Source: a virus
IMG/VR virus record: IMGVR_UViG_3300020700_000031
Coordinates: 1 to 25,504 of that record
DNA length: 25,504 bases
Reading direction: 5' to 3' (one strand)
Shown here: piece by piece, positions 5,332 through 10,251 of the stretch
How positions within the stretch are numbered: position 1 is the first letter of the stretch
How the letters are laid out: every line of letters starts with the position of its first letter
The notes under the pieces: generated by a model
What the model was told of the DNA's origin: nothing
Databases searched by the model: none
The model's input: the letters and a program-made list of their open reading frames with translations, nothing else
Program-made: the position numbers and the translations under genes

Positions 5332-5544
5332 ATGGTGAGCGCTCGAAGAATAAGGAAGGCATCAAAAAACCGGATCGGCAAGCAGCTGCTATGTGCGTTT
5401 GGCGTTGATGCTGGGTCGGACCAACTCTCGTTCACGGTATTTGAAGGCAGGCGCTCTGCAACCCTGTGGATAAGCGCTGCGGTGGCCGACCACTTGGGCG
5501 AGCAGTTTCGCAACGCTGCGGCTATGTGCCGTCGAACCCAATGA
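5332..5544 (+). CDS. Small basic protein after cro, unknown (70 aa)
   Basis: ATG at 5332, two bases after the cro-like stop, behind a G-rich stretch (GGGGG). The N-terminus is strongly basic (MVSARRIRKASKNRIGKQ), and the rest could form a small alpha/beta domain (QLSFTVFEGRRSATLWISAAVADHLGEQF). The 3' end overlaps the convergent gene at 5522 by 23 bases. No family recognised. Support is position, start signal and codon use. Confidence 0.5.
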   Translation: MVSARRIRKASKNRIGKQLLCAFGVDAGSDQLSFTVFEGRRSATLWISAAVADHLGEQFRNAAAMCRRTQ

Positions 5545-5895: not shown

Positions 5896-6282
5896 ATGAA
5901 GCTCTTTTTCGACGATGAATTTGACGCAATCGCAACCGCGATCGGCGAGAGTGGCAAGCAGTTCAAATTGGTTGCCGCGCACATGTTTCCTGACATGAAG
6001 CCAGAGAGCGCATATGCCCGGCTGAAGGAATGCTGCAGCCCTGTTGGGGATCAGCGGCTCACGTTTGGGCAGGTCATCCGCTTGATGGAGTTTTGCGAGT
6101 GCTACGACCCGTTGTTGTATGCCTGCGATGAGACGCTGCATGCTCGCCCTGACCGAAAGGCGCCGGATGATGAGGCTGTCAAGCTGGTCGAGGTCATCAG
6201 TCACGCAGCCAACACGATGGAGCGCGCCATGAAGGCGCTCGATCACATTCAGGCTCGGGGCGGCATCAGAGCAGTCGCCTGA
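5896..6282 (+). CDS. CII-like phage regulatory protein (128 aa)
   Basis: ATG at 5896, first gene of a coupled rightward set. Residues about 8-45 (FDAIATAIGESGKQFKLVAAHMFPDMKPESAYARLKECC) look like a helix-turn-helix domain of the phage regulatory CII type. Next come LTFGQVIRLMEFCECYDPLLYACDE and a conserved RPDRKAP-like linker. The C-terminal helix probably mediates oligomerisation. Position after cro agrees with a lysis-lysogeny regulator. The start signal is modest (GGATG six bases upstream). It shares one base with the next ATG at 6282. The family call is from pattern memory and is not certain. Confidence 0.65.
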   Translation: MKLFFDDEFDAIATAIGESGKQFKLVAAHMFPDMKPESAYARLKECCSPVGDQRLTFGQVIRLMEFCECYDPLLYACDETLHARPDRKAPDDEAVKLVEVISHAANTMERAMKALDHIQARGGIRAVA

Positions 6283-6575: not shown

Positions 6576-6649
6576 AGTACAACCAGGTGGTGTGGTGCCG
6601 CCTTGCACGTAACGTGCGCAGGGGGGGGGCATTTGGCAACCTCAATTGA
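6572..6649 (+). CDS. Possible 25-aa coupled leader frame into the primase start
   Basis: The ATG at 6572 overlaps the previous stop as ATGA, like the other coupled genes here. The frame runs MKYNQVVWCRLARNVRRGG, through the nine-G run at 6621-6629, and stops at 6649, 17 bases inside the primase gene in another frame. With eight G instead of nine it would fuse in frame to the primase. It may be a leader that carries ribosomes to the primase start, a remnant of an older N-terminus, or chance. Confidence 0.3.
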   Translation: MKYNQVVWCRLARNVRRGGAFGNLN

Positions 6650-9143
6650 AGACGTCCTAAACCAGATGCGCGAGCGGGGCATGGAAACCCCGGGCAATCT
6701 GACCACCGACGGCAAAAAGATCACATGGGCTGGCGATGCACGCCGGCCAAACAAGAAGAACGCTTGGGCCGTGCTGCATGAATGGAGCAGTCCAAAGAGC
6801 GGGCGCGTCTTCATCGTCGGCATTTACGGCATCCGAGACCAATGGTGGACGATCGAACCGACACAGGTCGAATGGTCGCCGGCAGAAAAGTTGGCCTGGC
6901 AAGAGAAGCAACGGGCAATAGAGAAGGCTGCAGAAGAGGATCGCAAGGTCCTGGCCGCCGAGGCGGTCGATAAGGCCGAGAAGCTTTGGGCGCGATCACG
7001 GACTGAGGGCGCGAGTGAATATCTGGAGCGAAAACAGGTAGGCGCGTACGGCGTTCGGTTTATGCGTGGCTCTGTGGTGGTGCCTCTGGTGGATCTAGCC
7101 GATAAGTTGCACGGCCTGCAATGGATCGCTGCCGACGGCAGCAAGGTGTTCGGTACTGGTACTGTCAAGGAAGGTCACTTCCACTTGATGGGCGACATGG
7201 CGCCCGATCTTCCGGTTCTGTTTGCCGAGGGCTACGCAACCGCTGCCAGCGCGCACCAGGCCACCGGATGGCCAACGGTGGTGTGCTTTGATGCCGGAAA
7301 CATCCTTCCGGTGATGGCATCATGGCGCAAGCTGTACCCCGAGACTGTGTTTGTAGTGGCTGCCGATGATGATCGCCACCTGGTGCGTCGTCTTTGTGAG
7401 CGACTACAGGCGGTCGGCGTTGGCGTCAAGCAATCTGACTTTGCCAAGAGCGCCGGCGGGCTGCGTGACCTGCAATGGGATCTGCCCGACAAGCGAACTG
7501 TCCAACTCAAGGCGCGATGGGCCAAGGATAAGTGCGACGTCTACTACATCGAGGGCTCGATAACCTGCGATGGCGTAGCGCAGCTACTCAAAATCGAAAA
7601 TGCTGGCAGGTCCAAGGCCTTCGCGGCAGCGAAGCGTCACAACGCGCGTGTGGTGGTTCCGGTATTTGCTACCAGGGCTGATGATGCGACCGATTTCAAT
7701 GATCTACATGTAGCTGAAGGATTGCCGGTAGTGCGCGCGCAGCTGAAAGCTCCGCCGCCAGAGTCAAAGCAAAAAAAATCGAACGCCATGCCTTCCGGCG
7801 TAGGTGGGTCAGATAACGGCTCGCACGATGGCGCACCCAGAATCACATTTCCTTACCTCACTGAAAAGTGGGAAATCAAAGGTATCCGTGAGAACGTCTA
7901 TTTCGCGCTGCGCGAAGACCTGAATCTGCGCGAGCTGGTGCGATACAACGAGTTCTCAAACAAGATCGACAAGTGCCGCGTTCCGCCGTGGGGCGGCAAG
8001 GCCGGCGAGTGGAAAGAAACGCTCGACGACATACGCCTGGCTGAATACGTGGCGGCACGCCATGGCCTGATTGTTGCCAATCCGGTCACGATCGAGCAAG
8101 CCGTGTTGATGTCAGCACACGACAACGCATACAACCCGGTGCGCGATGATTTTGAGGCTGTGGCATGGGACGGCATCGAACGGCGCAAGCATTGGATGAT
8201 TGACTGCCTCGGCGCTGCCGACACAGAGTATGTGCGGCTGGCGTCGGAGTACTTCCTGCTCAGCATGGTGGCACGTGTGTTTGAGCCCGGCTGCCAGATG
8301 GATTACATGCTGGTGTTGCAGGGCCTGCAGGGCGCCGGCAAGACCAGTGCACTCAACATCCTGGGCGGCCACTATTACGGTGCAGGATCATTCCGCATTG
8401 GAGATAAGGAATCGATGCAGGCCCTGCAAGGCAGGCTGATCTTCAACTTCAATGAGCTCGATGCGCTGAGCCGATCCGAAGCAACAGCCATTAAGGGCTT
8501 CATTACCGAGCGTACCGATCGCTTCCGCCCGCCCTATGCCAAAGGCTTTCAGGCCTTCCCCCGCAATTGCGTGCTGACCGGCGACACCAACCAGGGCGAG
8601 TTCCTGCGCGATGCAACAGGTGATCGTCGATTCTGGGTAGTGCATTGCGCCGAGGTCGAGGTCGAGAAGCTCACCAGCATGCGGGCCCAACTGATGGCCG
8701 AGGCTATTCACCATTACAAGGAAGGTGCGCGCCGCTATCCCACTAAGGACGAAGAGACTACGTTGTTCTTCCCTGAGCAGGAAAAGTGGAAGTTTGTCGA
8801 TGTATGGCATGACGCCCTGGCTCGCTATGTCAATTCGGATGAATTGGCTGAGGGGTTTGACGGTAGCGTGTCAGATGCTGGCACCTTGCTGTCGAATCAC
8901 CAACGTGCCTTCTTTAGCGCGCACGAGCTACTGGTTAGGGCGTTGCACATTGACATCGGCAAGGTCGATCGCGCTGGCACGATGCAAAAGAGCGTTGCCA
9001 ACGCAATGAAGATGCTGGGCTTTGACGGCAACATCAAATGGGCCAAGGGAAGGGTAAGACCTCGCGGCTATCAACGCCGCCTGGCAGCACCCATCACACT
9101 GCAATCACCAATACCAACCAGCGAGGTTCCGGCATGGGACTGA
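6633..9143 (+). CDS. TOPRIM primase / VapE (VirE)-family superfamily 3-like helicase (836 aa)
   Basis: The likely start is TTG at 6633 (ATSIEDVLNQMRERGM) because the nine-G run just upstream gives a strong Shine-Dalgarno; a TTG at 6603 is possible. The N-terminal half carries a TOPRIM primase domain: Glu199 in AEGYATAAS and Asp245-Asp247 in AADDD. A linker rich in Pro, Lys and Gly (about 368-405) follows. The C-terminal half is a VapE-type ATPase: Walker A GLQGAGKT at 564-571 (Lys570), Walker B-like IFNFNELDAL with Glu608, then the family segment KGFITERTDRFRPPYAKGF and TGDTNQGEFLRDATGDRRFW (sensor/arginine finger region). The protein should prime and unwind at the phage origin. A small inverted repeat (GCACGT-A-ACGTGC, 6605-6617) lies ahead of the start. 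Confidence 0.9.
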   Translation: MATSIEDVLNQMRERGMETPGNLTTDGKKITWAGDARRPNKKNAWAVLHEWSSPKSGRVFIVGIYGIRDQWWTIEPTQVEWSPAEKLAWQEKQRAIEKAAEEDRKVLAAEAVDKAEKLWARSRTEGASEYLERKQVGAYGVRFMRGSVVVPLVDLADKLHGLQWIAADGSKVFGTGTVKEGHFHLMGDMAPDLPVLFAEGYATAASAHQATGWPTVVCFDAGNILPVMASWRKLYPETVFVVAADDDRHLVRRLCERLQAVGVGVKQSDFAKSAGGLRDLQWDLPDKRTVQLKARWAKDKCDVYYIEGSITCDGVAQLLKIENAGRSKAFAAAKRHNARVVVPVFATRADDATDFNDLHVAEGLPVVRAQLKAPPPESKQKKSNAMPSGVGGSDNGSHDGAPRITFPYLTEKWEIKGIRENVYFALREDLNLRELVRYNEFSNKIDKCRVPPWGGKAGEWKETLDDIRLAEYVAARHGLIVANPVTIEQAVLMSAHDNAYNPVRDDFEAVAWDGIERRKHWMIDCLGAADTEYVRLASEYFLLSMVARVFEPGCQMDYMLVLQGLQGAGKTSALNILGGHYYGAGSFRIGDKESMQALQGRLIFNFNELDALSRSEATAIKGFITERTDRFRPPYAKGFQAFPRNCVLTGDTNQGEFLRDATGDRRFWVVHCAEVEVEKLTSMRAQLMAEAIHHYKEGARRYPTKDEETTLFFPEQEKWKFVDVWHDALARYVNSDELAEGFDGSVSDAGTLLSNHQRAFFSAHELLVRALHIDIGKVDRAGTMQKSVANAMKMLGFDGNIKWAKGRVRPRGYQRRLAAPITLQSPIPTSEVPAWD

Positions 9144-9442
9144 GCGCACACATGCACAAGGCAGTTATGGGAACCGTGGGGCCGATGGGGCGCCGTGGGC
9201 CTGCCTGGTGCAAGCGCGTGACTCAATCCGCCCGGCAGCAATTGCGTCCCGGACGTTTATCCCGGACGTTGCAAGTTATTGATATTGCGTGTGATTTCGG
9301 AATCCGTCCGGGACGACCGCCACCACCACGCACACACATGCATGTGCATGTGTGCAGGCGCAGGCAGGTGCGCAGGGGCGGGCGTGCGTACGTGCGCGCG
9401 ACATGTTTTCTCTGGACGTTCTAGAAAAAGGAAGAATAGAGA
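9144..9442. other. Gene-poor stretch after the primase gene, candidate replication origin
   Basis: 299 bases without a convincing gene; the open frame 9134-9424 has a composition unlike a protein. The stretch holds three copies of RTCCSGGAC (9246-9254, 9259-9267, 9306-9314), with two more just inside the next gene (9464-9472, 9491-9499). It also has an AT-rich patch around 9270-9300, a 10-base inverted repeat (9333-9354) and a long alternating purine-pyrimidine tract up to about 9400. Iteron-like repeats beside a replication gene are typical of origins. Function is inferred. Confidence 0.4.
9333..9354. repeat. 10-base inverted repeat in alternating purine-pyrimidine DNA
   Basis: CACACATGCA (9333-9342) and TGCATGTGTG (9345-9354) are perfectly complementary with two bases between. 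The tract alternates purines and pyrimidines and continues into CGTGCGTACGTGCGCGCG at about 9385-9402, so it could extrude a cruciform or adopt Z-form DNA under supercoiling. Confidence 0.7.
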
Positions 9443-9778
9443 ATGAAATCAACGACTTGCGACGTCCGGGACAACGACCGGGGCGTTTGTATCCCGGACG
9501 GATTGGGGCCAATACCAGCGAGCATCAAGGATCAAATGCCGGAACTGGCAGGGATGCTTCAAAGCTTGTCAAACCAGCTTGGGCGTGAAACAGTTCAACT
9601 CCAAATCAAGGCCAGCATCGACCTGCGCCGCGCATTTGATGCAGACGACTACACAACAGTCAATGCGATCTATCGGCGTGGCCATGGCTGGATTCACTGG
9701 CAGGAAAACGGCTTTTGCATTGGTGTTCCAGAACGGTCGATGCGAGACTTTGCAAAGCGCCACCGGGGCGGCGCATGA
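9443..9778 (+). CDS. Unknown early protein (111 aa)
   Basis: ATG at 9443 behind AGGAAG. The N-terminus (MKSTTCDVRDNDRGVCIPDG) is encoded over two of the RTCCSGGAC repeats, so its sequence is partly dictated by DNA sites. The middle is helical (ELAGMLQSLSNQLGRETVQLQIKASIDLRRAF), and the C-terminus has a Trp/His-rich strand (YRRGHGWIHWQENGFCIGVP). No domain recognised. It is coupled by ATGA to the Q-like gene, so it may act in the same switch or in replication. Confidence 0.65.
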   Translation: MKSTTCDVRDNDRGVCIPDGLGPIPASIKDQMPELAGMLQSLSNQLGRETVQLQIKASIDLRRAFDADDYTTVNAIYRRGHGWIHWQENGFCIGVPERSMRDFAKRHRGGA

Positions 9779-10116
9779 TCCATTGGGTGGACGCAAAATT
9801 TGAGAGATGGGGTAGCTGGGTGCAGATGGGGCACGGCCTTGGCAGCCGTGGTTTGACCGCGTCCTGGGGCGCTGTGGGCCGGAGTAATGTGCGCGAAGCG
9901 TTTATCCCGATAAAGAGCATTGAGGACAGTCGCCTGGATGATTGGGTGAGATCACTTTCACCAGAAGACCAGACCATTCTGTTTGAGGTCTATTGCACCT
10001 CCCACACATCGATGCAGCATGCTCGCATTCTCAAGATGAGCACCAGGACGCTATACGCGCGCCTGCACAGCCTGCAGGCGTCCTATACGCGCCGTAATGA
10101 ACGGCTTGAAAAATGA
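9775..10116 (+). CDS. Q-like antiterminator or sigma-region-4-like HTH regulator (113 aa)
   Basis: The ATG at 9775 overlaps the previous stop as ATGA. The N-terminus (IHWVDAKFERWGSWVQMGHGLGSRG) fits the start of small phage Q/late-regulator proteins (W-G-x-W). The C-terminal half, LDDWVRSLSPEDQTILFEVYCTSHTSMQHARILKMSTRTLYARLHSLQ, is an HTH of the sigma70 region 4 type. It is the last gene before a promoter-free, hairpin-rich gap and the late operon, the usual place of Q. It probably switches on the late genes. The distinction between true antiterminator and DNA-binding activator cannot be made here. Confidence 0.6.
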   Translation: MIHWVDAKFERWGSWVQMGHGLGSRGLTASWGAVGRSNVREAFIPIKSIEDSRLDDWVRSLSPEDQTILFEVYCTSHTSMQHARILKMSTRTLYARLHSLQASYTRRNERLEK

Positions 10117-10209: not shown

Positions 10210-10251
10210 GGCCCAGCAGTCTCCCACACCACCTGCTGGGCCGCTTTCTTT
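10210..10251 (+). terminator. Intrinsic terminator before the late operon
   Basis: GGCCCAGCAG (10210-10219) and CTGCTGGGCC (10233-10242) form a perfect 10-base GC-rich stem with a 13-base loop, followed by GCTTTCTTTCT. It lies between the Q-like gene and the late operon, where a Q-type protein would let polymerase pass. Confidence 0.75.

Follow-up and report, generated by a model that had tools for sequence, protein, structure and literature searches.

A probable phage replication origin made of two inverted half-origins beside a Toprim-VapE primase-helicase gene

In the window, the whole 25,504-nucleotide stretch of DNA analysed here (a complete IMG/VR record and probably a fragment), positions 9228–9504 very likely constitute a phage replication origin, composed of two inverted half-origins whose iterons would be bound by the winged helix of the adjacent helicase. 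An origin right after the primase-helicase gene had been predicted from the sequence alone, and the local clustering of the sites, their conserved positions, their joint switching among relatives, their tracking of the helicase and its homology to helicases of phage-inducible chromosomal islands (PICIs) all support that placement.

Results

The motif RTCCSGGAC gives eight strand matches in the 25,504-base contig, compared with 0.74 expected and a maximum below eight in 100 dinucleotide shuffles. The five sites predicted at 9246, 9259, 9306, 9464 and 9491 are all present and all exact, and every one of the eight matches falls within them (9246–9499), in place of the even spread over the genome that had been named as evidence against an origin. 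Because one-mismatch copies occur near the chance level contig-wide (28 versus 20.8 expected), the cluster is local. Dispersal of the sites over the genome is ruled out by the contig count and by a looser pattern scanned in relatives.

The sites had been described as near-palindromes, and they do look palindromic in the window's variant, but the conserved unit is an asymmetric 10-bp iteron with the consensus TCCCGGACGK in the window. In the alignment of relatives, the conserved part is GG[AC]CGK and the upstream half, a triplet, is variable, which makes the near-palindrome incidental to one variant. In addition to the five exact sites, four degenerate iterons occupy positions at which relatives have good sites (Table 1); strong sites in the window are thus five of about nine. 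Direct tandem copies are spaced 9–13 bp apart, and the first iterons lie ~85–105 bp past the helicase stop codon.

Table 1. Features of the proposed origin and of its flanks, with positions in the window
Feature	Position	Strand	Remarks
Toprim-VapE primase-helicase, proposed initiator	6603..9143	+	PF05272 E 5.5e-65; PF13362 E 8.7e-7
C-terminal winged-helix domain, proposed iteron reader	8910..9074	+	Third helix ~8979-9014
Open frame through left half-origin, non-coding behaviour	9131..9424	+	Even codon-position substitutions
Conserved element AGTTATGGGAACC	9163..9175	+	Left edge of origin, from alignment of 17 relatives
Degenerate iteron CCGCCCGGCA, 8/10	9228..9237	-	2 bp from mirror position of site 5
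Iteron 1, TCCCGGACGT	9247..9256	+	Exact site
Iteron 2, TCCCGGACGT	9260..9269	+	Exact site; mirror partner is iteron 4
Left AT-rich block GCAAGTTATTGAT..., candidate melting site	9270..9303		Kept in relatives
Iteron 3, CCGTCCGGGA	9304..9313	-	Exact site
Degenerate iteron ACGACCGCCA, 7/10	9313..9322	-	Tandem at 9 bp; good site in relatives
Central GC-rich alternating purine-pyrimidine tract	9323..9403		Between half-origins; includes inverted repeat 9333-9354
Degenerate iteron CTCTGGACGT, 7/10	9410..9419	+	Mirror of 9313 site
Right AT-rich block	9420..9455		Mirrors left block; contains gene 9443 start region
Small coding gene, no Pfam/PHROG match	9443..9778	+	Third-position excess in relatives
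Iteron 4, ACGTCCGGGA	9462..9471	-	Exact site
Degenerate iteron ACGACCGGGG, 8/10	9474..9483	-	Mirror of iteron 1
Iteron 5, TCCCGGACGG	9492..9501	+	Exact site
Downstream coding gene, not likely site reader	9775..10116	+	73% identical in L016, iterons different

Other elements of the original prediction are found in the same region. The AT-rich patch appears as two patches, at ~9260–9290 (up to 64% AT) and at 9404–9450 (up to 72% AT), and the 10-base inverted repeat is real (9333–9342/9345–9354). The alternating purine-pyrimidine tract exists as a 33-nt run when one break is allowed, but shuffles reach 40, which places its length within chance; the central tract goes beyond shuffles in L047, L099, L063, L066 and L065, and not in the window.

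The sites and AT-rich blocks are arranged as two halves in mirror order. The left half reads 9247+, 9260+, AT-rich block, 9304− and degenerate 9313−, and the right half, past the purine-pyrimidine tract, reads degenerate 9410+, AT-rich block, 9462−, degenerate 9474− and 9492+. Alignment of the reverse complement of the left half to the right half scores 28.5 in the window, where the shuffle maximum is 13, and the inverted match between halves exceeds all 200 shuffles in each of the 15 family members tested. The halves are joined by a 27-nt inverted repeat of 85% identity (9257–9283/9448–9474), a perfect 13-nt inverted repeat connects 9301–9313 with 9492–9504, and ATCAACGACTTGCGACGTCCGGGA in the right AT-rich block also matches left-half sequence in reverse complement.

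With the mirror axis set by pairing iterons 2 and 4, 8/10 matches lie 1 bp from the mirror of iteron 1 and 2 bp from that of iteron 5, and a 7/10 match lies 1 bp from that of the 9313 site; the background chance within 2 bp is 0.0043 for at least 8/10 and 0.031 for at least 7/10. The mirror position of iteron 3 holds no matching site in the window. Restricted to the five exact sites of the window, the mirror test is not significant; the case for a mirror there rests on the relatives and on the degenerate partners. Mirror spacing reaches p <0.05 in 17 of 35 VapE loci with gaps and strands permuted, and in 19 with random positions, counts in which loci inside the close family are mutually dependent. 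Site maps in unrelated VapE loci often mirror to the base pair, as in L092 (12/12 sites, six pairs) and L065 (10/10).

Relatives were gathered by protein similarity and comprise viral contigs and two beta-proteobacterial MAG contigs; phage and plasmid collections hold no relatives at the DNA level. In an alignment of 17 regions 3′ of the helicase gene, the window among them, the positions and orientations of the sites are constant, while the sequence of the sites switches jointly within each phage. Specifically, the TCCCGGACGK class comprises the window, L009, L033 and L034 (with a mixture with TGCCGGACG in L020 and L033), TGCYGGMCGK is the class of most other relatives, and GGTGGACGK occurs in L047 and L050. 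The upstream triplet is CCC at six of eight core sites in the window and GCT at all seven in L019, and GGT is the commonest in L047 and L050. Such a concerted change is expected if the sites share one DNA-binding protein. At 9163–9175, the conserved element reads AGTTACGGTAACC, an inverted repeat, in several relatives, and some have the inverted repeat GTTACGGTAAC.

The joint switching also bears on whether the sites act as transcribed RNA hairpins (a terminator, attenuator or antitermination signal). Inverted sites could fold into hairpins, but all sites switch to one new sequence, beyond what pairing alone requires, some copies are direct tandems at 9–13 bp, and no Rfam match was found, which makes this reading extremely improbable.

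The protein that most likely reads the iterons is the helicase itself, through the winged helix at its C-terminus. The helicase matches PriRep1 of the staphylococcal island SaPI5 (7pds) with a profile E-value of 3.1e-50 over the helicase domain and a Foldseek E-value of 8.4e-13; 7pds is PriRep1, evidently the SaPI5PriRep1 of PMC10516667. A winged helix is predicted at the C-terminus in an AF2 model (ma0e5140f3645, pLDDT mostly 70–90 in that region), and its top structural match is the C-terminal part of 7pds, with a middling Z of 6.1 (VIA). The C-terminal domain alone gave no meaningful profile match in PDB sequences and no Foldseek match below E 0.001.

Among 28 distant loci, iteron similarity tracks the C-terminal 130 residues of the helicase (r 0.27, p 0.0005; partial r 0.32) and not the helicase core (r 0.05, p 0.25). 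Without the closest pair, the correlation with the C-terminus is r 0.21 (p 0.012; partial r 0.27, p 0.0006). Within the close family, the covariation is not significant (11 loci, p 0.23). By inspection, changes in the third helix seem to accompany iteron class.

Natural swaps separate the helicase from the downstream genes. L046 and L050 lack genes 9443 and 9775 and have the helicase and the array; in L016, gene 9775 (73%), the neck gene (80%) and the terminase small subunit (79%) are present beside different iterons and a different helicase (34% over part). These swaps indicate that the sites go with the helicase and not with the genes downstream. In L016 (4699–5004) and L046 (~5960–6230), another family takes the place of the small gene that follows the origin; the two replacements look alike by eye and the arrays stay with the helicase, which marks a cassette exchange point.

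The same swaps much weaken the second option of the original prediction, a multi-site control region. Multi-site arrays are common in phage control, and gene 9443 starts within the right half, so that its product, that of gene 9775 or a repressor from elsewhere could regulate gene 9443 onward. This is unlikely, given the array without those genes in L046 and L050, the other iterons beside a gene 9775 of 73% identity in L016, arrays 3′ of unrelated VapE genes with differing next genes, and a promoter scan, itself a weak test, in which 9131–9510 contains no sigma-70-like site. Autoregulation may be a second role of the sites.

A cos or packaging site bound by a winged-helix terminase small subunit is most improbable. 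The phage does encode a lambda-type terminase, and the lambda small subunit binds repeats in cos, but here the small-subunit gene starts 1.5 kb off, the small subunit of L016 is 79% identical beside different iterons, and arrays accompany the helicase in unrelated elements.

The sites were predicted to continue into the next coding region, and the first ~20 codons of gene 9443 do lie inside the right half-origin; this overlap accounts for the impression that the sites constrain the protein. The open frame at 9131–9424 has substitutions by codon position of 20/21/18, 21/21/15 and 18/16/17, against 31/20/110 in the helicase; with no codon-position signal, it is ruled out as a source of protein-coding constraint. 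The frame stays open in many relatives and will probably be misannotated as a gene.

Genes 9443 and 9775 are coding by codon-position pattern where alignable, and neither has a match among the phages searched. The C-terminus of the 9775 protein appears HTH-like by eye, with no Pfam or PHROG match, and it is a possible regulator. After gene 9775, 10212–10245 contains a hairpin (GGCCCAGCAG...CTGCTGGGCC) followed by T-rich DNA, terminator-like by eye and absent from the scan's list. Past the two small genes come a neck/tail-completion gene and the large and small subunits of a lambda-type terminase.

Arrays also accompany other VapE helicases. The search for VapE domains covered samples of one order, one class and one phylum, and an array was scored from repeated 8-mers in the 400 nt beyond the 3′ end of the gene against 60 shuffles. 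The array exceeds all 60 shuffles at 45 of 56 loci, a set that takes in the close family and near-duplicates, so that not all are independent; the same test is positive at 5 of 56 inside the gene and at 7 of 53 farther downstream. The 39 loci used later form 16 clusters by core similarity. The arrays usually differ between loci (ACCCGGAACA, GTGAGTAACA, AGTGGGAACA, AGGTTGTGACA, GGTGTTACAG and others), and the genes after them vary among unrelated VapE loci. Several further VapE loci have an array within 900 bp of the gene, and some of the sampled loci have none. Arrays are found in the cultured phages Marinobacter phage PS3 and Staphylococcus phage 2638A, and ~300 bp on in Pseudomonas phage LPPA36. 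In one phage collection, 951 of 50,697 records have tblastn matches to the helicase of the window.

No DnaA box (TTWTNCACA, at most one mismatch) is present in 9131–9520. One exact match, TTATCCACA, lies far from the origin on the minus strand (5465–5473), and one-mismatch matches are scarcer than expected in the window (10 versus 23.7). The GC skew lacks the flip that forks with a G-rich leading strand would produce at this site and lends the origin no support: the cumulative skew peaks between the site and a few kb rightward in most contigs (window 6–25 kb and relatives). A cumulative-skew peak near the origin is the opposite of the usual origin minimum.

Discussion

In the mechanism that we propose, each half-origin is a set of asymmetric 10-bp iterons with an AT-rich block, and the two lie around the central alternating purine-pyrimidine tract. 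The C-terminal winged helix of the Toprim-VapE primase-helicase would bind the iterons, and the helicase would assemble at the origin and melt an AT-rich block, as SaPI/PICI Rep proteins do. Replication would start without DnaA, and the mirror symmetry could serve to load two helicase rings in opposite directions, giving bidirectional forks.

In a lambda-type origin, phage iterons lie beside an AT-rich element inside the initiator gene O. Lambda O recruits the host helicase, whereas here the iterons are outside the initiator gene, 3′ of a helicase for which self-loading is proposed. The alpha protein of satellite phage P4 initiates at short repeats (ori/crr) near its gene; as far as known these have a different layout. 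Alpha is likewise a primase-helicase fusion (PMC7145576).

The closest parallel is with the PICI origins of SaPIbov1, SaPI1, EfCIV583 and EcCICFT073 (PMC6092414), which share with the window a VapE-type helicase bearing a tail domain at its C-terminus (SaPI5 PriRep1), an origin directly past the 3′ end of the gene, a pair of iteron sets with AT-rich DNA, and element-specific iterons. In PICIs, the region 3′ of rep, in which two iteron sets flank an AT-rich region, is the proven origin (PMC6092414). The same layout is found here, where iterons 1–2 and 3 flank the AT block at 9270–9303, with a mirror copy at 9410–9501. Unlike a PICI, which is a helper-reliant satellite, the element here is a phage that carries terminase and neck genes of its own, and it has two inverted half-origins, each with an AT block, around a purine-pyrimidine tract, with mirror spacing examined in the VapE loci sampled here. 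From the shared helicase family, place and layout, the element appears to function as PICI origins do, though its own terminase sets it apart from PICIs.

Plasmid parS-like and inc regions also carry iteron arrays, so the array could instead serve a plasmid-like prophage in partition or incompatibility and not be a replication start. We regard this as very unlikely: the iterons go with a helicase, and origin function is proven for the homologous SaPI/PICI arrays (PMC6092414).

We found no description of origins of phages with VapE-type primase-helicases in the open-access literature searched, and earlier ones may exist. The region proposed here gives this large group of phages an origin that can be tested. 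The PICI layout was stated in 2018 to occur in "no other known bacterial replicon" (PMC6092414); the present region calls this uniqueness to chromosomal islands into question, and thereby bears on the relationship between satellites and phages.

Whether twin inverted half-origins are the standard origin of VapE phages, loading two opposed self-assembling helicases, with winged helix and iterons coevolving, is to our mind an even question. If they are, hundreds of natural matched pairs exist, from which the recognition code could be read. Because the iterons vary by phage and follow the helicase C-terminus, comparison alone would supply many initiator–site pairs, usable for deriving recognition rules, for predicting origins and for assessing the incompatibility of co-resident elements.
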